A stretch of 64,000 bases of DNA from Pseudomonas sp. CC6-YY-74 (GTDB lineage Bacteria; Pseudomonadota; Gammaproteobacteria; Pseudomonadales; Pseudomonadaceae): NCBI RefSeq assembly GCF_002025205.1, contig NZ_CP019947.1, forward strand, positions 2,518,001 to 2,582,000, given 5' to 3'. The position numbers were made by a program, and so were the translations under genes. The notes beneath the pieces are model-generated. The model ran no database searches and was not told the DNA's origin. It saw nothing but the letters and a program-made list of their open reading frames with translations. Below are positions 3,883 to 18,926 of the stretch, piece after piece (position 1 is the first letter of the stretch; every line of letters starts with the position of its first letter).

Positions 3883-6534
3883 TTAAGGTGTCTCGCGGGA
3901 GTAGCCCCTTAATGATGGCGTCCATCCGGGCGGATGTTGTTGCGGGCCATTAGCGGCCTTGAATGCTCTCCAGTCGAAAGTCTGCGCGAATTGATCGGCT
4001 TGCTCTGCCGGCAGCGGGCGGGCAATCAAGTAGCCCTGCATCCAGTCACTGCCGACTCTATTCATGGTGCAGTATTGCTCGGCTGTCTCTATGCCTTCGG
4101 CAATGACCTTGAGTCCCAAGCGTTGGGCCAAGGTCATCAGGGTTTCGCAGATGGCCAAGCCTTCTTCGGTGTTCATGTCGATGATGAAACTACGGTCGAT
4201 CTTCAGCACGTCCAGCGGCAGTTGGCGCAGGTAGCTGAGCGACGAGTAGCCGGTGCCGAAATCGTCGAGGGCAATCTTCACCCCGGTCTTGCGTAACGCG
4301 TGCAGGAGCAGAATGCTGGCTTCCGGTTGTTGCATCAACATCGATTCGGTCAGTTCCAGGGTCAGGCCCGCGGGCGCTATGCCTGCCTGACGTATGGTGT
4401 TGAGCAACGTGTCGGCAAACGCCGGTTGCGTCAGTTGCTTGATCGATACATTGACGCACATGTGCTTAATCGGTGAGTCCTTGTCCTGCCATTCTTTCAG
4501 TTGCCGGCAGGCCGTTTCCAGCACCCACTGACCAACGTCCATTATCCGGCCCGACTGCTCCAGCAGGGCAATGAAATCAGCCGGATAAATCATGCCGCGG
4601 CTGGGATGCTGCCAGCGGATCAATGCCTCGACGGAATCGATGACGCCTGAGGCCAAGTTCAGCTCCGGCTGGTAGTGGAGGACGAATTGTTGTTCCGTTA
4701 GGGCCGAGTGCAAGTCGGTGAGCAACTGCAGGCGCTGGCGGGATTTGTCGTCGAATTCCTGCTGAAACACCACCGTCTGCCCACGTCCCTGGCGCTTCGC
4801 CAGGTACATTGCCGTATCGGCGCTGCGTAACAACGAGGCGCCCGTGTGGCCATGGTCCGGGTAAGCGGCGATGCCGATACTGGCATAAACGTAAATCTTG
4901 TCGGGGCCCAAGGCGATGGGCTCGTTCAGGCTCGCGTGCAGGCGTTCGGCCACGCCCATGACCTGTTCGAGGTCGGGAAGATTGGGCAGCAACACCAGAA
5001 ACTCATCGCCCCCCAGGCGGCCGACCATCGACTCGTTCTCATTCAGGGGACTGCTGCCTGGATTGCCCAAGGGGTTGTGATTATGCAGCTGCAACAGCTG
5101 GTCTGAGGCGCGCAGGCTGTGGACGAAGCGCTGCGATACCTCGATCAGCAGACTGTCGCCGACCTGGTGGCCGAGCGTGTCGTTAATTTCCTTGAAGTCA
5201 TCGAGATCGATCATCAGCACCGCGTACTGATGGTCCAGGGTCAGTTTCCGGCTCAACGAATTTGATAAGTGTTCGGCGACCAGGCGCCGATTGGGTAAGC
5301 CGGTCAGGGCGTCGTAGTTGGCCATTTGCGACAGCTCACGGGTAGACCGGCGCTGGATGGCGAAGACACGCTCCACCGCTAGCGCGAACCCGGCAATCAG
5401 CAGGCTTAACAGCGCCAGTCGCTGCCACATGTCTCTGCGGATTGGATCAATTGCCACGTTGAGGTCGGCCACCGACTTATACCGATGCAAGTGCCACGCC
5501 TCGGAGAAGGGCAACCGGATGGTTTGCTCGAGATGAATGGCCGCTTGCTGCTTACCCGTGAGGAAATCCGGCAGGTCGAGGTTGCGTCTATCCATGATGC
5601 GCACGCCGGTCTGGCGATTCTCCAGCAGGTATTCGGCGGCCGGAGTGGCGAGGTCAATCTGCTGCTGGGCCAGAAACGCGTTGTCCACAGCGGTGATGGG
5701 CAGCCTGGGCCAGCCGTTCAGGACGGCCTCCAGTACATTGGCCCGCAGCACGGCGGTCACCAGCCCTTTGAACTGTTTGTTGGCCTGATCGTAGATAGGC
5801 ACGGACAGCAGAATACCCAAGGTATCGCGCTCGTCGCCGTTGGCAATCGAGGTGTACTGGGAGTTATCACAGGTACGCAGCAGGGTTGAGCTCACCGCCG
5901 CAATGCCCTCGGGGGCGGCGCGAGGCAACTGGGGATGGTATTGCTGCAAGTAGCTGAGTTGCCGCACATATTCGGCATACTCGGCAGCTTCGTACTCTTC
6001 GGGCTCATCCTGCTCGTGAGTATTGTCTGCTTCTTGCGCGTTGGCGATTCGCTCCAGCAGCACCTGGTCAAACATCAGGAAAGGCACTTCACCCCGTTCG
6101 GGGGCGAAGCCGTCATATACCAGATACACCTCAGATACCGCGACATCGGCGGAAACGTGGTTATACAGTTGCTGGATGGTATTGGCGTCACCATCGCCGA
6201 AGTGCCCCAGCTTGACGACGTCGTCATGGATGCTGCGGCGATTGCGCGGGGCCGCGCTACGCACTGCCGGCAATAACGAGATGGTTTTGATAGTGACGTA
6301 GGTTCGCTCCAGCACCCCGGCCAGCTTTTCGGCCATGGTTTGCGCTTCAAGCCGCATCTCGTTGCGGATCTTCTGTTGGGTATTGGCGGCTATCTGCTGG
6401 GCGTCACGGTAAATGGCCAGCGCAGCGATTATCCACAGCAGCATGAAACCGGCAAGAATGACGTATTTACCCCATCCATTCATGCGCCACGTGGTGGATG
6501 CCCCCAGAGTTGCTCTGCTCGGTTTACTCGTCAT
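3883..6534 (-). CDS. Membrane-bound GGDEF/EAL protein with large periplasmic sensor region
   Basis: Predicted cyclic-di-GMP enzyme of about 883 residues. A membrane helix (around WGKYVILAGFMLLWIIAAL) and a second one (LALLSLLIAGFALAV) flank a periplasmic region of about 330 residues, probably Cache-like. The GGDEF motif (GRLGGDEFLVLL, about residue 510) and the EAL motif (SVEALIRWQHP, about residue 636) are both intact, as are LDDFGTGYSSLSYL and VLKIDRSF, so both synthesis and hydrolysis are possible. An acidic Glu/Asp-rich stretch lies in the sensor part. The start is uncertain: the chosen ATG has GGGGAG eleven bases upstream, while in-frame ATGs at 6564 and 6573 have no clear ribosome site. 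Confidence 0.92.
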   Translation of the reverse strand: MTSKPSRATLGASTTWRMNGWGKYVILAGFMLLWIIAALAIYRDAQQIAANTQQKIRNEMRLEAQTMAEKLAGVLERTYVTIKTISLLPAVRSAAPRNRRSIHDDVVKLGHFGDGDANTIQQLYNHVSADVAVSEVYLVYDGFAPERGEVPFLMFDQVLLERIANAQEADNTHEQDEPEEYEAAEYAEYVRQLSYLQQYHPQLPRAAPEGIAAVSSTLLRTCDNSQYTSIANGDERDTLGILLSVPIYDQANKQFKGLVTAVLRANVLEAVLNGWPRLPITAVDNAFLAQQQIDLATPAAEYLLENRQTGVRIMDRRNLDLPDFLTGKQQAAIHLEQTIRLPFSEAWHLHRYKSVADLNVAIDPIRRDMWQRLALLSLLIAGFALAVERVFAIQRRSTRELSQMANYDALTGLPNRRLVAEHLSNSLSRKLTLDHQYAVLMIDLDDFKEINDTLGHQVGDSLLIEVSQRFVHSLRASDQLLQLHNHNPLGNPGSSPLNENESMVGRLGGDEFLVLLPNLPDLEQVMGVAERLHASLNEPIALGPDKIYVYASIGIAAYPDHGHTGASLLRSADTAMYLAKRQGRGQTVVFQQEFDDKSRQRLQLLTDLHSALTEQQFVLHYQPELNLASGVIDSVEALIRWQHPSRGMIYPADFIALLEQSGRIMDVGQWVLETACRQLKEWQDKDSPIKHMCVNVSIKQLTQPAFADTLLNTIRQAGIAPAGLTLELTESMLMQQPEASILLLHALRKTGVKIALDDFGTGYSSLSYLRQLPLDVLKIDRSFIIDMNTEEGLAICETLMTLAQRLGLKVIAEGIETAEQYCTMNRVGSDWMQGYLIARPLPAEQADQFAQTFDWRAFKAANGPQQHPPGWTPSLRGYSRETP

Positions 6535-6828
6535 AAGCCTGGCGACTCCCCCAACTACCCGCATGTTGAACAAATCGAGTTACCGACGCTAAAGGTATAT
6601 GCCGACCTGCTCTCGCGAGCGTCTCCAGCCGCCCGGCAATGCAACCTGTTTTGCTTAGCCTAGCCGCGAGCGCAATTTTAGCGAGAGCTGCTCAGCAAGA
6701 AAGCGGCTGTATAGCTGCTTGGCGAGCATCGCGGCCCTGTAATGTCGAAACGATATCATGACGGGGGCTTGCGCTGTAACCAGGGTTAAACGTCCACACC
6801 TAGCGGGCATCAGCTGTGACGCACTTCT

Positions 6829-8468: not shown

Positions 8469-8483
8469 TGGCATCACTCTTGC
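8469..8483 (+). promoter_or_regulatory. Sigma54-type promoter for the chemoreceptor-NIT-EAL operon
   Basis: TGGCATCACTCTTGC contains the -24 GG (8470-8471) and -12 GC (8482-8483) separated by exactly ten bases, close to the sigma54 consensus TGGCAC-N5-TTGC. The predicted RNA start is near 8495. No enhancer-binding site could be assigned. Short matches of this kind occur by chance, but the position before a terminated leader and an operon supports it. Confidence 0.6.
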
Positions 8484-8494
8484 CTAGTATTTAT

Positions 8495-8601
8495 CGCTAC
8501 CCGATATAACTGACAGATCACATCCGCAGGATTCGCTCCTGCAAGGCAAAGGCGCCTGAACCCGCTGCGGCTATTTCGCAGAGGCTTCAGGCGCTTTTTT
8601 T
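8495..8601 (+). ncRNA. Candidate sigma54-dependent small RNA or attenuating leader
   Basis: The segment from the predicted sigma54 start to the terminator T-run is about 107 bases. It contains hairpin GCAGGA-TTCGC-TCCTGC (8526-8542) and then a two-tier terminator hairpin. It has no open frame of note and does not match 6S, RsmY/Z or Crc-binding RNAs (no repeated AANAANAA). It could be a free small RNA or a leader whose terminator is bypassed to express the operon that starts 28 bases after the T-run. Confidence 0.5.
8552..8601 (+). terminator. Rho-independent terminator in front of the chemoreceptor gene
   Basis: GCGCCTGAA and TTCAGGCGC form a 9-bp stem enclosing an inner CTGCG/CGCAG stem and are followed by seven T residues. 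It stops only 27 bases before the ATG at 8629, so it either ends a separate upstream RNA or attenuates the operon. Confidence 0.8.
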
Positions 8602-8628: not shown

Positions 8629-9762
8629 ATGAAGTGGCTTACCTACCCTGCGTTCTTGCTGCTGCGCGAACTGGGCATCGTCGGCATTATCCGCACGCTG
8701 CTGGCGATTACTTTGGCCGGCGCCGCCATTGCGCTGTTTGCGCCGACCCTGCCAACAGGCCCGCTGTGGGCAGTCCTGGCCTACCTGGCCATTGCCAGCC
8801 TGTGGTTGCTGCGGCAGGAGATCGGGCAGTTGCAACGCTACTGTGAAGACGCCGCCCAGCATGGCGCCCAGGAGCCCGTCAGCGCTAGCGAGTGGCAGCT
8901 ACTGCAGCCAGTTAGCCGCGGCTTCCAGCAGTGGTTGAACCGCGAGCAACGGCAACAACAGCTGTTGCAGCAGCGCCTGGATGAAATCTCCCACTCCTCT
9001 CACGAGCTTGAGCAAAGCGCGGCACTGGTGACCCGCAATGCCGAAGGGCAAAGCCAATCGGCCACTGTCGCGGCAGCCGCGGTGGAACAATTGAATGTGA
9101 GCATTGTGCAGGTGGCGGCGCTGGCCGATGAGTCGCGTCAGACCAGCGTGATGGCCAGCGAACAGCTGGCCGATGGCATCGAGCAGCTCACCAATTTGGT
9201 GCAGCAGGTGTCCGAGATGGCGCAGCAAGCCATCACCACCAACGAGCTGATCCAGCGACTGAACAGCAACTCGCGCACCATCAATGAAATGTCCGGCACC
9301 ATCCGCGGGATTGCCGCACAAACCAACTTGCTCGCCCTGAATGCCGCCATCGAAGCGGCCCGCGCCGGTGAGAGCGGCCGTGGCTTCGCCGTAGTGGCCG
9401 ATGAAGTGCGCCGCCTGGCCTTGCACAGCCAGGAATCGGCGGCCGAAATCAGCCGCAACATCGAATCGGTGCAACAGCACATCCAGAATGCCACGGTCCA
9501 GGTGTCCGACCTGACTAATCTGGCGCATCGCAGCGCGCACAGCTCCGAAGCGGTGCGCAGCCTGCTCGATCAGGTGCAGCAGCGCACCCTGCAATTGACC
9601 GAGCAGGTCGACCAAGTGGCGGTCAGCACCGAACAGCAGGGCAAGGCTGTTGCGGAAATCGCCGAACTGGCCGACCGCGTCCGTCAAGGCAATGCCGACA
9701 ACCTGCTGGCTGCCGATCAGGCGCGCACCATCGCCCACCATCTGGCTCATCTGACAGGATAA
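8629..9762 (+). CDS. Methyl-accepting chemotaxis-type signalling protein lacking a ligand domain
   Basis: A 377-residue protein with two membrane helices joined by a very short loop in the first 65 residues, then a coiled-coil linker and a full cytoplasmic chemoreceptor signalling domain. The highly conserved hairpin tip reads [20 protein letters not shown] and is followed by [15 protein letters not shown]. No periplasmic sensing domain exists, so input probably comes from a partner. The next gene, 5 bases downstream, encodes a membrane NIT-like sensor and is the obvious candidate. The start has GGAG nine bases upstream. Expression from the sigma54-type promoter at 8469 is inferred. Confidence 0.92.
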
Positions 9763-9767
9763 TCAGC

Positions 9768-10622
9768 ATGAATGGATTCCCCGGTCTCCCCTTCCAGCTC
9801 GCTGGCGCCGCCACCCTGGTCATAACGACCCTGCTGTTCTACGGCCTGCACCGACGCCTGCAGCGGCACAGGCGCCAGCATATGCAGTTGAACATTCGTC
9901 AGCTGGCCTTGTTGCGCGCACTGATCTCCGGGTTTCAGCGTCATCGCGGCCTGAGCAATGGCGTGCTCTGTGGCGATGCCAGCCTGAGTCAGGATCTTGC
10001 TGCCGCACGCCAGGGGCTGGACCAGCATATCCGCGCGGCCGAGGAGCTCGACAGCTCGCACCGGGACGCCTGGAATAGCCTTATCGATCACTGGTCACGG
10101 ATGCGCGAAGGGCGCAGTAGCGACCGGGCGAACAATCTGACCCAGCATCACCTGATCATTCGCAACAGCATCTTTCTGATGGAGGATGTGGCCAGCGAAA
10201 TCGATCTGAGCGAGGGCCGTGCCGAGCTGAGTTACCTGCCCTGCATCTGGCGCGAGGTGGTCCAGGCGGCAGAGTGGGCGGGCCAGGCGCGCGCCCTCGG
10301 CACCGGCATCGCGGCGGCCGGCCAGAGCAGTGCCGAGCAGCGCGTGCGGATGCGTTTTCTCTACCAGAAGATCGAGCTGCTGGCCGGCACGGCCTTTGCC
10401 ACCCTGCAGCGCCATGCCACCGAACACCCGCAGGCCAACGGGTTGCGCCTGGAGCATCGCGAACAGGTGGTGGCGGATTTTCTGCGCTGCATAAAACAGG
10501 AACTGCTCGGCCAGGAACAACCCGTAATTGCCGCCAAGACCTACTTCCAACGCGCTAGCCAAGCCATCGACGAACTGCTGGCCCTGGTCGATGCGGCGCT
10601 GGCTCAGCTACAGCCCCGCTAA
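9768..10622 (+). CDS. Membrane-anchored NIT-like (nitrate/nitrite sensing) protein
   Basis: A 284-residue protein with one N-terminal membrane helix (LAGAATLVITTLLFYGL) followed by an all-helical region. ALLRALISGFQRHRGLSNG matches the first NIT motif (QxERGLS-like) and AGQARALGTGIAAAG the second ARALG-type motif. NIT domains are known or proposed to sense nitrate and nitrite. No output domain is fused, which is unusual: the protein sits between a chemoreceptor without a ligand domain and an EAL protein, and may act as the shared sensor. With a single N-terminal helix the orientation could place the domain on either side of the membrane. A paralogue lies at 20128-20844. Confidence 0.7.
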   Translation: MNGFPGLPFQLAGAATLVITTLLFYGLHRRLQRHRRQHMQLNIRQLALLRALISGFQRHRGLSNGVLCGDASLSQDLAAARQGLDQHIRAAEELDSSHRDAWNSLIDHWSRMREGRSSDRANNLTQHHLIIRNSIFLMEDVASEIDLSEGRAELSYLPCIWREVVQAAEWAGQARALGTGIAAAGQSSAEQRVRMRFLYQKIELLAGTAFATLQRHATEHPQANGLRLEHREQVVADFLRCIKQELLGQEQPVIAAKTYFQRASQAIDELLALVDAALAQLQPR

Positions 10623-10632
10623 GGAATTGCAG

Positions 10633-11910
10633 ATGCTCAATACCGTCCAGCCGCTGAACTACGACCAGCCAGCACCCGTACGCCGGCCAGCCCCCGGCCA
10701 GCTGACTGACCCCATGCTTGCCACCGGCTATCGCGGCCTGTCACTGAGCAGCCATTTCCAGCCCATTTTCAGTATCGCGCACGGCCGGGCGGTGGGCTAC
10801 GAAGGGCTAATTCGCGCCCAGCATGCCGATGGCACAGCCGAGCCGCCGGCAACCCTGCTGGCGATGCCGAGCAATGGCCGGGAAAGCCTGGAGCTGGACC
10901 GCACCTGCCGAACCCTGCATGTGCACAATTTTGCGCGCCAGGCCACGGGGCAGGCCTGGCTGTTTCTCAACTTGAACTCGCAGTACCTGGTCAGCGAACA
11001 ACCGGACATTGGTTTTACCCGCAATCTGCTGCAGGCAAGCGGCATTGCCGCGCATCGGCTGGTGATCGAAATCATTGAAAGTGAAGTCAGCGATCATGCC
11101 CAGTTGAAGCGCTTCATCAGCCATTTTCGCCAGCTCGGCTGCCTGATCGCCATCGATGACTTCGGCGCCGGGCATTCCAACTTCGACCGCATCTGGGACC
11201 TGGAACCCGACATCGTCAAGATCGACCGCCGCCTGATTCAGGATGCCGGTACTTCCCGTCGAGTGGAGCGGATTCTCACCGGCATGGTCAGCTTGCTGCA
11301 TGAGGCTGGCAGCCTGGTGGTAGTGGAAGGCGTGGAAAGTGAACACGAAGCCCTGGTGGCGATTGCGGCCAATGCCGACATGATCCAGGGCTTCTATTTC
11401 GCCAAACCACAGGCCCGCATCAACGCCGAGCAAAGCTTTGTGACTACCTTCGACAGCCTGCTGCGCGGCCAGCAGTGGCAAACCGTCAAACGCAGCGCCG
11501 ACTTGCAGCACTATGTGCGCGAAATAGAAGGCCTGTTTCACCAGGCCGTGGCGCATTTTGCCGCCAACCAGCAGTTTGACCACAGCTGCGGCGTACTCTT
11601 CAGCGACCCGCGCACGGTGCGCTGTTATCTGCTCAATGAGGCCGGTTATCAGGTCTCGCGCAATGTCTATGCCCCGCACTACCAGCAGCAGATGAATGCG
11701 CGATTTGCCCCTCTATTGTGTGGCGACAACGCCAACTGGTCGCACAAGCACTACCACTACCGGGCGCTGAAGCAACCGGGAGTCATTCAGGTCAGCCGGC
11801 CCTATCTGTCGGTCGCCGATTCACGCATGTGCATCACGGTCTCGCAGACCGTCAAGGTCGGCGGCACGCTCTATGTCTTCTGCTGTGACCTGGACTGGCA
11901 GGAACAGTGA
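10633..11910 (+). CDS. EAL-domain phosphodiesterase with C-terminal YkuI_C/PAS-like sensor domain
   Basis: A 425-residue soluble protein. The EAL domain spans about residues 30-275: the EAL triplet is EGL (YEGLIRAQH, Glu57), with LNLN, IEIIESEV, AIDDFGAGHSNFDRIW, IVKIDRRLI and VVEGVESE, so the metal and catalytic residues appear to be kept and cyclic-di-GMP hydrolysis is likely. The last 130 residues form a separate domain resembling the YkuI_C (PDC-like) sensor found after EAL domains. The start at MLNTVQPLN has AAGGAA seven bases upstream and lies 10 bases after the NIT gene, so the three genes form one operon. Confidence 0.88.
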   Translation: MLNTVQPLNYDQPAPVRRPAPGQLTDPMLATGYRGLSLSSHFQPIFSIAHGRAVGYEGLIRAQHADGTAEPPATLLAMPSNGRESLELDRTCRTLHVHNFARQATGQAWLFLNLNSQYLVSEQPDIGFTRNLLQASGIAAHRLVIEIIESEVSDHAQLKRFISHFRQLGCLIAIDDFGAGHSNFDRIWDLEPDIVKIDRRLIQDAGTSRRVERILTGMVSLLHEAGSLVVVEGVESEHEALVAIAANADMIQGFYFAKPQARINAEQSFVTTFDSLLRGQQWQTVKRSADLQHYVREIEGLFHQAVAHFAANQQFDHSCGVLFSDPRTVRCYLLNEAGYQVSRNVYAPHYQQQMNARFAPLLCGDNANWSHKHYHYRALKQPGVIQVSRPYLSVADSRMCITVSQTVKVGGTLYVFCCDLDWQEQ

Positions 11911-15904: not shown

Positions 15905-18247
15905 TCAAGACACCTTCAACGCGGCAGTCGGCAACGGCAGAGCGACCCAGGCCTCGAAGGCCTCGGCCGGCAGCGGCCGGCTGATCAGGTAGCCCTGGGC
16001 GCAGTCACATTTCCAGCGTTCGAGCAAACGCAGGCTGCAGGCCAACTCGACCCCCTCGGCAACCACCTTGAGGCCCAGGCTGTGGCTCATTTCGATGGTC
16101 GAGCGGACAATCACGGCGTCTTCGCTGGCCTCATCCAGGTCAAGGATAAAGGACTGGTCGATTTTCAACTCCTGCACCGGCATGCGTTTGAGCTGGGCCA
16201 GCGAGGAATAGCCCGTGCCGAAATCGTCCACCGATAGGCTGATGCCGAGGTCGCGCAAACCGTGCAGCACTTGCAGCGCCAGCGTGGGGTTGAGCATCAC
16301 CCCGCTTTCGGTAATCTCGAAAATCAGTTGCTCGGCCGGCACCTGGTAGCGCCGCAACAACTGGCCGACGCGCACAGGCAGCTTGGGGTCGACCAGGTCC
16401 TCGGTGGAGATATTCAGTGACAGCTGCACGCGCAGGCCGCGGCCATTCCACGCCTGCAACTGCCGCAGAGCCTCTTCAATCACCCAGGCGGTAAGGCTCT
16501 GGATACTGCCGGTACGCTCGGCCAGGGGGATGAATTCGCCTGGCGAAATCATCCCCAGCTGCGGGTGCTGCCAGCGCAGCAGGGCTTCGGCCTGGCGCAC
16601 TTTGCCGGTAGCGATATCCAGCTTGGGTTGGTAATGCAGCAGCAGTTCGGCGTTGTCGGGGGCCAGGCGCAGGTCGCGGATCAGGCGAATCTGCCGCTGG
16701 TGTACGGCGTCGCGGCCGCGTTCGTACATCAGCAGGCGACCAGGCAGCTGCGCGGCGTCCTGCATGGCGATACTGGCGCGGCGCAACAGGTCATCCGCGG
16801 TTTCGCCATCGGCCGGGTAGGCGGCGATGCCGACACAGCAATCCAGGACGACCTCCTGATTGCCGATGCGCAAGGGCTGGCTGAGTAATTGCTGCAAGCG
16901 GTCGCCGACCACAATGGCACTGTCGCCGTCGCTGTTTTCCAGCAACAGCAGTAACTCGCTGGTCATCAACTGAGCCAGGCTGTCGCCGGGGCGCAGGCTG
17001 TCTTGCAGACGCTGACTGAGTTGCTGCAAGGCCAGATCGCTGGCGCCCGGCCCACAGCTGTCGTTGACCGCACGCAAGTTGCCTACGCCCACATACAGCA
17101 GCGCCGTTGGCCGTCCGGCGGCAATCGCACTGCCGAGCCGCTCCTGCGCCAGGGTGCGGTTGGGCAGACCGGTCAGCGCATCATGCAGGGCGTTATGTGC
17201 CAGTTGTCGCTCACGCTCGGCAAGGCCCAGCTGCATGGTGTGAAACGCCTTGGCCAAGCTGCCCAGCTCATCGTTGCGGTGCAGTTCGAGGGGCATCTGG
17301 TAATCACCCTGGCCCACCCGCTCGGCCACAGCCGCCAGGCGCTGTACCGGCTTTGATATATTGCGCGCCAGCAACAAGGCACCACCCAACGCGGCCAGCA
17401 GTGCGGCCATGGCGATCAACAGAATATTGCGATCGAGTGGGGCAAAGGCCTGCTGCGCCTGGGTCATGGATTTATGCAACAAGGCCTGGACCTCAAAGCC
17501 ATCGCCACTGGCGAGCACCAGGCGTTGATCGAGGTAGCGCTCTTCGCCGATCATCATCGGATCGTTAGCAGCGGCTGGCTCAATCGCCATGTCGTTCCTC
17601 AGCAACGCCTGCGTCGAGGCTGGCAAGGTACTGACCCAGATCGCCGGCAGACCCTCCTGACTGGCAATCAGGGTCAGCTCGAGCAGGGTCAGTTCGCGCA
17701 GCTCGCGAGCGAATGCCTGGTCCACCTCGAAGCCCATCATCACTCGCGCGATCGGTAGAGGGGCATTGACCGTGGCTTGCACCAACAGGTAGATGCTGTC
17801 GCCGATCGGCATCAGGAAAATCTGCACACCTGCGCGCTGCTGCGCCATCACCTGGGCACTCAGACGTGCGGCGGTCTGCCCGCTGATGCGCCGGTCGGTG
17901 CTTACTTCAAGAGTGCCATCGAGGCCGAGCATCATCACCGCGCTGGCATTGATCCGTGCGCCATGGTTGGCCAGCGCCGAGCGAATGGTTTCGCTATCGC
18001 CGCTGGTCACCGCCGCCTTGAAGCCAAAGTCGGCGGCCAGCACCTGCACCGCGTCGCGCAATTGCCGACCGCGCACATCCAGCAGTTGTTCGAAGACCCG
18101 CGTACCGACATCCAACTGCTCGCGGGCCTGGCTGCGCACGGCCACATTGGTGGCGGCCTGCACGGCGAAATACAGCGCGCCGACCACCACCAGCATCAGC
18201 AGGATCAACACACTGGCGATGCGCGCCTGAAAACTACGGGGCAGCAT
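15905..18247 (-). CDS. Membrane sensor with HAMP, degenerate GGDEF and intact EAL domain
   Basis: A 780-residue predicted cyclic-di-GMP phosphodiesterase. Two membrane helices (VLILLMLVVVGALYFAV and LLIAMAALLAALGGALLL) flank a double-Cache-like periplasmic domain; a HAMP linker (ISKPVQRLAAVAERVGQGDY) follows. The GGDEF signature is replaced by MTSELLLLLE (about residue 430), so diguanylate cyclase activity is not expected, while the EAL motif (QAEALLRWQHP, Glu554), FEITES, VDDFGTGYSSL and LKIDQSF are intact. The start MLPRSFQ overlaps the end of the cupredoxin gene by 14 bases; MPSRKRS at 18271 is an alternative. Confidence 0.92.
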   Translation of the reverse strand: MLPRSFQARIASVLILLMLVVVGALYFAVQAATNVAVRSQAREQLDVGTRVFEQLLDVRGRQLRDAVQVLAADFGFKAAVTSGDSETIRSALANHGARINASAVMMLGLDGTLEVSTDRRISGQTAARLSAQVMAQQRAGVQIFLMPIGDSIYLLVQATVNAPLPIARVMMGFEVDQAFARELRELTLLELTLIASQEGLPAIWVSTLPASTQALLRNDMAIEPAAANDPMMIGEERYLDQRLVLASGDGFEVQALLHKSMTQAQQAFAPLDRNILLIAMAALLAALGGALLLARNISKPVQRLAAVAERVGQGDYQMPLELHRNDELGSLAKAFHTMQLGLAERERQLAHNALHDALTGLPNRTLAQERLGSAIAAGRPTALLYVGVGNLRAVNDSCGPGASDLALQQLSQRLQDSLRPGDSLAQLMTSELLLLLENSDGDSAIVVGDRLQQLLSQPLRIGNQEVVLDCCVGIAAYPADGETADDLLRRASIAMQDAAQLPGRLLMYERGRDAVHQRQIRLIRDLRLAPDNAELLLHYQPKLDIATGKVRQAEALLRWQHPQLGMISPGEFIPLAERTGSIQSLTAWVIEEALRQLQAWNGRGLRVQLSLNISTEDLVDPKLPVRVGQLLRRYQVPAEQLIFEITESGVMLNPTLALQVLHGLRDLGISLSVDDFGTGYSSLAQLKRMPVQELKIDQSFILDLDEASEDAVIVRSTIEMSHSLGLKVVAEGVELACSLRLLERWKCDCAQGYLISRPLPAEAFEAWVALPLPTAALKVS

Positions 18248-18926
18248 CACGCTGCGCTTTCTTGAAGGCATCGCCAAAGGCACTCGCTGGCGCCTGCGGC
18301 GAAGCGACAACGGCGGACGCCTGCATGGCCAGGGTAAAGCGCTGCAGGGTTTGCTGTGCGCCGAGCACCAGCGTGCCTGCAGCTTGCGGCAGCCTGTCGG
18401 GGGCCTGCGGGTGCCACAGGCTGACGGCGTAATTGCCAACCGGCAAGCCATCGAGCTGCACCCTGCCCTGGGCATCGCTCACGGCGAACCAGGGGTCGTC
18501 GGTGACATAGACATAGCCGACCATCCAGTCATGGATATTGCAGCCGAGCACCACCGCACCGGACTTGTCGAACAGCACCGGTTCGCTGGGTGTGCCCTGG
18601 TACAGGCGCAGCTCGAACTTCTTGGCCGGCGAGAAGGAATAGACGTGGTGGCGAATATTGTCGCTGTTGGGGAAGGCCACCTCGGTACCGCTGCGCACCA
18701 CCAGCACGTTTGGCACGAACTGCTTGGCCTGCTGGTCCATCAGCGCCGGCACCGGCTCGGCCTCCGCGCCCAAGGGCCCGCGCAAGGTCAACACCGCACC
18801 CGCCAACGGCTGGCCCTGGGCATCGACCAGCTCGGCATTCAGGCTGGCGGCCCAGAGCACTGGGCTTATAGAGCAGAGCAGGCCAAGCAAGGCAACGCGT
18901 GATAGCTCGAAGAAAAATCTGCTCAT
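18234..18926 (-). CDS. Periplasmic cupredoxin-like (methylamine utilization-type) protein
   Basis: A 230-residue exported protein with a signal peptide ending near VLWAA. The core is a cupredoxin: TEVAFPNSDNIRHHVYSF supplies a histidine (His93 or His94) and VVLGCNIHDWMVGYVYV supplies Cys129, His132 and Met135, the classic type 1 copper ligand set. A carboxypeptidase-regulatory-like beta domain (AQGRVQLDGLPVGNYAVSLW) follows. Such proteins are commonly annotated as methylamine utilization proteins, though no methylamine genes are here. It is the first gene of the operon leading to the EAL protein, DUF3034 and the globin, so it may feed a copper or redox signal to the EAL sensor. Confidence 0.85.
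   Translation of the reverse strand: MSRFFFELSRVALLGLLCSISPVLWAASLNAELVDAQGQPLAGAVLTLRGPLGAEAEPVPALMDQQAKQFVPNVLVVRSGTEVAFPNSDNIRHHVYSFSPAKKFELRLYQGTPSEPVLFDKSGAVVLGCNIHDWMVGYVYVTDDPWFAVSDAQGRVQLDGLPVGNYAVSLWHPQAPDRLPQAAGTLVLGAQQTLQRFTLAMQASAVVASPQAPASAFGDAFKKAQRDAAP

Follow-up and report, generated by a model that had tools for sequence, protein, structure and literature searches.

What does a chemoreceptor that lacks a sensor do beside a sensor protein that lacks an output? This question is raised by three genes of Pseudomonas sp. CC6-YY-74 that lie within the stretch of DNA analysed here (NZ_CP019947.1, positions 2,518,001 to 2,582,000; 64,000 nucleotides), which we call the window. All three are on the + strand, and the open reading frame (ORF) calls confirm the gaps of 5 and 10 bases between them. 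The first (8629..9762, +) encodes a transducer of the methyl-accepting chemotaxis protein (MCP) type with 377 amino acids, an N-terminal membrane hairpin and no ligand domain. The second (9768..10622, +) encodes a stand-alone, membrane-anchored protein of the NIT (nitrate-sensor) family with 284 amino acids, and the third (10633..11910, +) an EAL protein of 425 amino acids with a conserved C-terminal domain, a predicted cyclic di-GMP (c-di-GMP) phosphodiesterase with an EAL match at 2.6e-52. The original prediction had described the signalling parts as divided among three tightly spaced genes, and this description stands: Pfam gives MCPsignal (6.7e-34) in the chemoreceptor with neither HAMP nor a ligand domain, and NIT (PF08376, 3.1e-10) in the middle protein with no output domain. 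For the EAL gene, the longest frame opens at 10528 (TTG), within the NIT gene; we took the ATG at 10633 as the start because the alignment of relatives fits that position. Our answer to the question, to which we give a probability of about 0.6, is that the locus is an operon of the nitrate regulon for a bipartite chemoreceptor, accompanied in most close relatives by a c-di-GMP phosphodiesterase.

The unit that has been conserved is the pair of MCP and NIT genes, not the trio. We compared 19 distinct close loci, namely the window, 17 loci from a survey of 84,980 species, each represented by a single genome, and one locus (L005) from a sample of the genus. L002, L003, L004 and L006 lie on contigs equal in length to those of L012, L014, L020 and L022, with which they were counted once. 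The host genome comprises 5.04 Mb, and the named relatives belong to Pseudomonas and Marinomonas. In all 19 loci the MCP gene stands directly 5' of the NIT gene, the gap being 5 bases long in 18 loci and 4 in the other, and the genes flanking the pair are common to some of the loci and different in many. The EAL gene follows the pair in 12 of the 19. No EAL match was found in the other seven, which are those of P. sp. FEN, P. batumici, P. mangrovi, three Marinomonas and P. sp. WN033, so the comparison of neighbourhoods does not support the trio as the conserved unit. Two of the 12 EAL copies are broken, one by an in-frame stop (L021) and one by a frameshift (L024). In the latter locus (P. sp. 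Ant30-3) all three genes are broken and no leader was found, and it is either a decaying copy or carries assembly errors. In P. benzenivorans (L018), 191 bases separate the NIT and EAL genes.

Within the genus sample, a close NIT (at least 75% identity) occurs in 6 of 149 genomes, the seventh match being at 23%. Five of the 149 contain the EAL family at E <= 1e-60, and all five carry the pair. The profile searches scored a limited number of candidates per genome (for example 11 in the EAL genus scan and 4 in the EAL phylum scan), and absences hold at that depth. L016, a near copy of L015, was omitted from both alignments (A1 and A2) and from the tree, and L024 was omitted from the alignments on account of its frameshifts. 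The 17-locus tree places loci without the EAL gene among loci that have it, which suggests losses from an ancestral trio. Several nodes have support below 70 and the outgroup, L025, has no EAL gene, so a gain after the L025 split is equally possible, and we did not adopt the trio as ancestral. In the same tree, the two Marinomonas pairs included cluster with support of 99 and, with L025 as the root, are nested among Pseudomonas loci (next node, 69), which suggests transfer.

The arrangement extends well beyond these relatives. A profile of the close NIT sequences has matches in 22 of 369 genomes of the class, and a broader NIT profile in 53 of 398 genomes of the phylum. From them we took 16 distant stand-alone NIT genes (9 class and 7 phylum matches), having dropped L041/L160, L047 and L159, apparently longer proteins whose frames are broken. 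A match was classed as fused where its frame was long, for some phylum matches without inspection of the locus. Many NIT domains lie in frames of ~800-1170 amino acids (L130, L133-L143 and others), mostly of one phylum family (f207). Thirteen of the 16 genes stand immediately 3' of a gene for an MCP that has no ligand domain, eight at class level (L026, L027, L029, L030, L032, L033, L034 and L036) and five at phylum level (L128, L129, L131, L132 and L156). The MCP of L156 was missed by tblastn and recognised by reading its translation. No EAL match is present in the ~1.5 kb examined beside each of these 13 pairs. A further stand-alone gene, L028 (genome G308, L082 6134-7614), has a different partner: the membrane NIT gene is followed, with an overlap of 4 bases, by a receiver-ANTAR gene, an arrangement that amounts to a split NasR. 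Its NIT domain scores 18.0 bits, under the Pfam cut-off. Among the stand-alone candidates scanned, 3 of 10 (L128, L129 and L030) exceed that cut-off and seven fall below it, which may explain why the pairs have gone unnoticed.

The middle protein is a NIT-type helical bundle, as had been proposed. It scores 41.3 bits against a PF08376 cut-off of 24.9 and is the sole match to that family in the host genome; NCBIfam yielded no name for it. The predicted structure has a mean predicted local distance difference test score (pLDDT) of 90.5 and a predicted template modelling score (pTM) of 0.84, and its first helix is unbroken over residues 7-67, so that the membrane anchor runs on into the sensor bundle. 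With this model, Foldseek returned NasR chains as the sole matches below 1e-3 (2.7e-4 and 4.2e-4; next match 0.033), and VIA-align superposed the model on NasR with a Z of 21.2 over 253 residues (root-mean-square deviation 4.4), the next entry reaching 14.1. The domains of NarQ, PilJ and McpS (VIA Z 11-13) are generic helical bundles, and we did not accept them as NIT relatives. Searches of PDB sequences with the protein alone or with alignment A1 did not find NasR; a profile that included the distant NIT members found it at E 0.0019. Across 20 NIT domains, stand-alone and fused, eight residues (H59, R60, G61, G69, W109, H127, R175 and F260) do not vary. R60 is aligned with the arginine of the ERG motif of NasR and R175 with that of GQER; E175 and R176 of NasR are named as predicted pocket residues in a study of 2020 (PMC7496416).

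The charges around the first helix suggest which side of the membrane the bundle occupies. In all 32 stand-alone NIT proteins encoded beside an MCP or ANTAR gene (18 close and 14 distant), 0-1 lysines or arginines precede the first helix and 3-7 lie in the 20 residues after it. The nine fused NIT receptors are all net positive or neutral before the helix and net negative or neutral after it. By the positive-inside rule, the stand-alone NIT domain should face the cytosol, and we predict from sequence an orientation that is the reverse of that in fused NIT-MCP receptors. A tree of 27 NIT domains separates stand-alone from fused members, except for L156 on a long branch, and many of its nodes are weak.

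The transducer is one of 26 PF00015 matches in the host genome. Its signalling hairpin can be aligned with 22 of the other 25 host matches without any indel (L063 was dropped for want of a tip motif, and L078 and L079 are short), which makes its membership of the same arrays plausible. Pfam finds no HAMP, though the region aligns with the HAMP positions of other MCPs. Hydropathy shows one helix above the threshold, the second being placed by inspection; in the distant pair MCPs L026, L029, L030, L032, L034 and L036 two helices are seen. One other host match, at C1:4,727,071 (L079), has an internal TAG and may be a fragment or a disrupted chemoreceptor gene. We consider it improbable that the MCP acts as a dispersal-type regulator together with the EAL enzyme, without flagellar steering, in the manner of BdlA and DipA. 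The MCP-like BdlA and the phosphodiesterase DipA of P. aeruginosa do act in one pathway, but the signalling tip and length of the window MCP match those of the host's other MCPs, and pairs without the EAL gene are common.

Evidence of a different kind comes from the DNA 5' of the MCP gene, where an alignment of 11 loci contains a conserved block. Its order is a TGGCAY-N5-TTGC site, a hairpin, the element AGGC-AANGGC-GCCT and a terminator ending in T7. This conserved leader, combining a sigma-54-like site, a mini-hairpin with A1 and G4 in its loop and a terminator that overlaps it, is new here. In the window the candidate sigma-54-like site, recognised by promoter pattern, is TGGCAT-N5-TTGC (GG-N10-GC; 8469..8483, +). 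Such a site, with at least 9 of 11 consensus positions, lies 5' of the MCP gene in all 16 other close loci checked; within the window it is not significant alone (1 exact match vs 0.60 expected). Hairpin A follows (8526..8542, +), in the position of the ANTAR P1 hairpin, with the stem GCAGG/CCTGC and a 7-base loop; it folds in the window, L017, L015 and L023, the last with a compensatory change. Next comes a P2-type ANTAR mini-hairpin, AGGC-AAAGGC-GCCT, with an A1/G4 hexaloop (8544..8557, +). The alignment gives this loop as A-A-N-G-G-C in 17 of 17 aligned leaders, position 3 alone varying. The 3' arm of the mini-hairpin is the start of a strong intrinsic terminator (8552..8601, +; stem GCGCCTGAA/TTCAGGCGC, then T7) whose T7 lies 27 bases before the MCP start codon. 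Folding of the leader gives a z of -4.1 in the window (117 bases) and of -5.0 to -6.3 in four trimmed leaders. A simple terminator scan, limited to loops of 3-8 bases, does not list this terminator. In L018 (4563-4800), ~200 extra bases stand between the leader terminator and the MCP gene.

ANTAR proteins bind two mini-hairpins with A1/G4 hexaloops, the second of which overlaps a terminator (PMC3369931). With a strict script that asks for a P2 hairpin overlapping the terminator stem, the MCP leader is the one element found on both strands of the window, and 20 simulated 64-kb sequences contain none. The script finds the element in 15 of the 16 other close loci tested; it fails in L025, where the same P2 hairpin is visible by eye. 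Over 1.05 Mb of loci, it reports 17 of the 19 close loci (not L024 and L025) and four other places. One is the leader of the host nirB gene (L175), which has the same loop, AAAGGC, and a terminator of its own. The others are an NMT1_2 (NrtA-like) gene of genome G069 (L192), a second host nirB-type gene (L162) and a place with no gene behind it (L164). The gene at L162 (host C1:343,477) is cut by the end of the locus, scores 567 bits vs 578 and lies apart from the narK-nirB-nasA region. By eye, both the nirB and narK leaders of the host show P1- and P2-type A1/G4 hairpins and GG-N10-GC sites. A looser scan, which accepts A1/G4 mini-hairpins ahead of any run of T, also picks up several chance hairpins in the nas region; there the strict script retains the nirB element alone and rejects the narK leader. 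Rfam gave nothing near the gathering score on the leader.

The host has a candidate protein for such a leader. Its single ANTAR protein has a receiver domain and adjoins an NMT1_2 (NasS-like) gene, which is the NasT-NasS arrangement. NasT of Paracoccus binds the nasA leader, and NasS and NasT come apart when nitrate or nitrite is present (PMC3795266); the reference list of the same paper names nirB-operon antitermination in P. aeruginosa. The leader shares with NasS-NasT antitermination an A1/G4 mini-hairpin that overlaps a terminator and a NasT-like protein in the host. Hairpin A has no A1/G4 hexaloop, so we say that the leader works like an ANTAR target and do not file it as one. The original prediction had suggested a nitrate or nitrite-type input, and the leader and its match to the nirB leader now supply independent regulatory evidence for the connection with nitrate. 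It is very unlikely, in our view, that the terminator merely ends the upstream gene and is no attenuator. This would suit a strong intrinsic terminator and a sigma-70 scan that returned 0 sites, but the terminator stays with the pair despite different flanks, keeps its A1/G4 loop and matches the leader of host nirB. A sigma-28-type promoter 5' of the MCP gene was also considered and set aside, there being no convincing site (the loose pattern gave 91 matches vs 44 expected).

The third gene bears on nitrate as well, within limits. E57, E146, D175, D176, K196, E232 and Q252 are invariant in all six aligned EAL sequences, and we take these to be the metal-binding and catalytic residues. The 'YkuI_C-type sensor' proposed for this protein is half supported. 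The top PDB sequence match of the EAL family profile is to YkuI (2bas, 1.3e-21), and this alignment covers profile positions 41-349, extending beyond the EAL domain. The C-terminal domain, which is conserved in the alignment of relatives, had no Pfam match at E up to 10, and the protein further differs from YkuI in the linkage of its gene to a chemoreceptor pair. The AlphaFold model of the EAL protein (pLDDT 51) was not used. An orthologue, 56% identical over a span of 397 residues that takes in the C-terminal domain, lies between ntrCD and narK in the nitrate-transport (nrtABC-like) cluster of G308, which also contains the split NasR. In that cluster ntrCD and narK are over their cut-offs, an ntrB-like gene is below its cut-off, and there are also a molybdopterin oxidoreductase (no curated cut-off reached) and an NMT1_2 (NrtA-like) gene; the nine genes scanned include no MCP. 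In G174 a 42% EAL relative lies near ANTAR, NarK-like and NrtA-like matches. Among the loci examined, only the EAL branch nearest the window is tied to nitrate. Two side observations concern neighbouring proteins. Directly after the EAL relative of G174, in its nitrate-type cluster, is a GGDEF-matching protein (L099 9902-11392) whose N-terminus resembles NarX/PilJ sensors by eye. Near the trio in the window, long proteins at 3883-6573 (-) and 15905-18475 (-) have GGDEF- and EAL-like motifs on reading of their translations.

The EAL gene raises the possibility of three-way signalling from one shared input, as the original prediction suggested. On this reading the NIT protein would interact with the MCP and the EAL protein alike, and a single anion signal would drive CheA and c-di-GMP hydrolysis at once. 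The genes of most trios are tightly spaced, and no EAL of this family was seen without the pair in the 149 genus genomes at E <= 1e-60. We nevertheless hold it to be unlikely: seven of the 19 close pairs and the 13 distant ones lack the EAL gene in the regions searched, the EAL protein has a conserved C-terminal domain of its own, its orthologue in G308 stands in a cluster with no MCP among the genes scanned, and co-regulation alone accounts for the linkage. For communication between the NIT and EAL proteins, support does not go beyond the linkage of their genes. Communication between the NIT protein and the MCP is inferred from the adjacency of their genes, which persists over large distances, and from receptors in which NIT and MCP are fused.

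A number of observations count against the nitrate-regulon operon as we read it. In the leader, hairpin A has a 7-base loop with a variable position 1, not the A1/G4 hexaloop expected of P1. Sampling of the loci in which the leader element was sought was biased (a similar pattern had led to L162 and L164 and an ANTAR search to L192, and L175 was picked for its nas genes), and the strict script gave no match at the distant pairs. At least one ANTAR protein is present in 14 of 14 pair genomes, a count made in pair genomes only, which therefore does not discriminate. NarG, over its cut-off in 9 of these 14 genomes, was dropped as an uninformative predictor. Two of the stand-alone NIT genes, L157 and L158, have neither an MCP nor an ANTAR partner beside them; they have no Pfam NIT match and may therefore be poor members. 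The EAL family is found in 43 of 398 phylum genomes at E <= 1e-95 and is therefore general. One search with it matched 15 genomes (the host, 10 inspected and four others), and 8 of the 10 inspected distant relatives (35-41%) have no nitrate genes within 6-11 kb on each side; with such genes near two of the 10 (G308 and G174), we rejected the family as a general nitrate marker.

The remaining objections concern the ligand. A NIT domain by itself does not imply nitrate: that of PA4520 showed no binding of nitrate or nitrite (PMC6381276), and the pocket glutamate of NasR (E175) is replaced by A174 in the window protein. Both facts would suit an operon in which nitrate controls expression only, while the NIT protein senses another nitrogen oxide, an unrelated anion or no ligand at all. 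We find this doubtful, yet it deserves to be kept in mind. Against it, both aligned arginines are invariant, a nitrate-type leader lies upstream, and PacN of Pectobacterium mediates nitrate chemotaxis, according to papers that cite a study of NIT chemoreceptors. We link the operon with nitrate on three separate grounds, namely the NIT fold together with its two aligned arginines, the leader, and an EAL orthologue that lies among nitrate genes.

Under the nitrate-regulon reading, the operon would work as follows. A sigma-54 promoter would start transcription under nitrogen control. Without nitrate, transcription would halt at the leader terminator; with nitrate or nitrite present, NasT, freed by NasS, would hold the P1/P2 hairpins and allow read-through. 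The NIT protein would be anchored by its one N-terminal helix, with the sensor bundle in the cytosol, and would bind a small anion, most likely nitrate or nitrite, via R60 and R175. It would then relay the change to the MCP encoded next to it, a protein with a normal signalling tip and a membrane hairpin but without a sensor. The EAL enzyme would concurrently lower c-di-GMP and so favour swimming. Of this scheme, the computations show the gene pair, the NIT fold, and the leader with its resemblance to that of nirB; the topology, control by NasT, contact of NIT with MCP, the ligand and EAL catalysis are inferred.

Several known systems resemble parts of this scheme. CetA/CetB is a bipartite energy-taxis receptor of Campylobacter jejuni, with CetBA2 in Magnetospirillum gryphiswaldense (PMC2628428 and PMC12442639). 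As in CetA/CetB, adjacent genes encode a sensorless membrane transducer and a separate sensor protein, and sensing is, here by prediction, inside the cell. However, CetB is a cytoplasmic PAS protein with FAD, whereas the sensor of the window is a NIT bundle anchored in the membrane, and the locus has in addition a gene for a c-di-GMP enzyme and a nitrate-type leader. Because the sensor is NIT and not PAS, we describe the pair as working like CetA/CetB without filing it as a member. In the fused receptors PA4520 and PacN a NIT domain feeds an MCP signalling domain, as is proposed here, but within one polypeptide, with the NIT domain between two membrane helices and a periplasmic charge bias; the window NIT is a separate protein and predicted to be cytosolic. 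NasR has the same NIT fold. The output here would be chemotaxis, unlike that of NasR and NasS-NasT, with antitermination as the predicted means of controlling the operon. Bipartite chemoreceptors described in the literature examined are PAS-based (e.g. PMC2628428 and PMC12442639). Our literature search found no NIT-based bipartite chemoreceptor, although a 2023 study of NIT chemoreceptors could already mention stand-alone NIT proteins.

A wider and more tentative idea is that the pairs represent an unnamed, widespread class of split chemoreceptors in which a NIT domain facing the cytosol would let cells navigate by internal nitrate. In Pseudomonas, this class would be induced by nitrate via NasT antitermination and would share its signal with a dedicated c-di-GMP phosphodiesterase. 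If this were true, nitrate supply, taxis and the decision to swim or settle would be tied into one operon, and a NIT-based split receptor would explain some of the chemoreceptors that lack a ligand domain. It would also reopen the question of what NIT domains sense, and the locus would offer a directly testable case of a chemoreceptor operon under nitrate antitermination.

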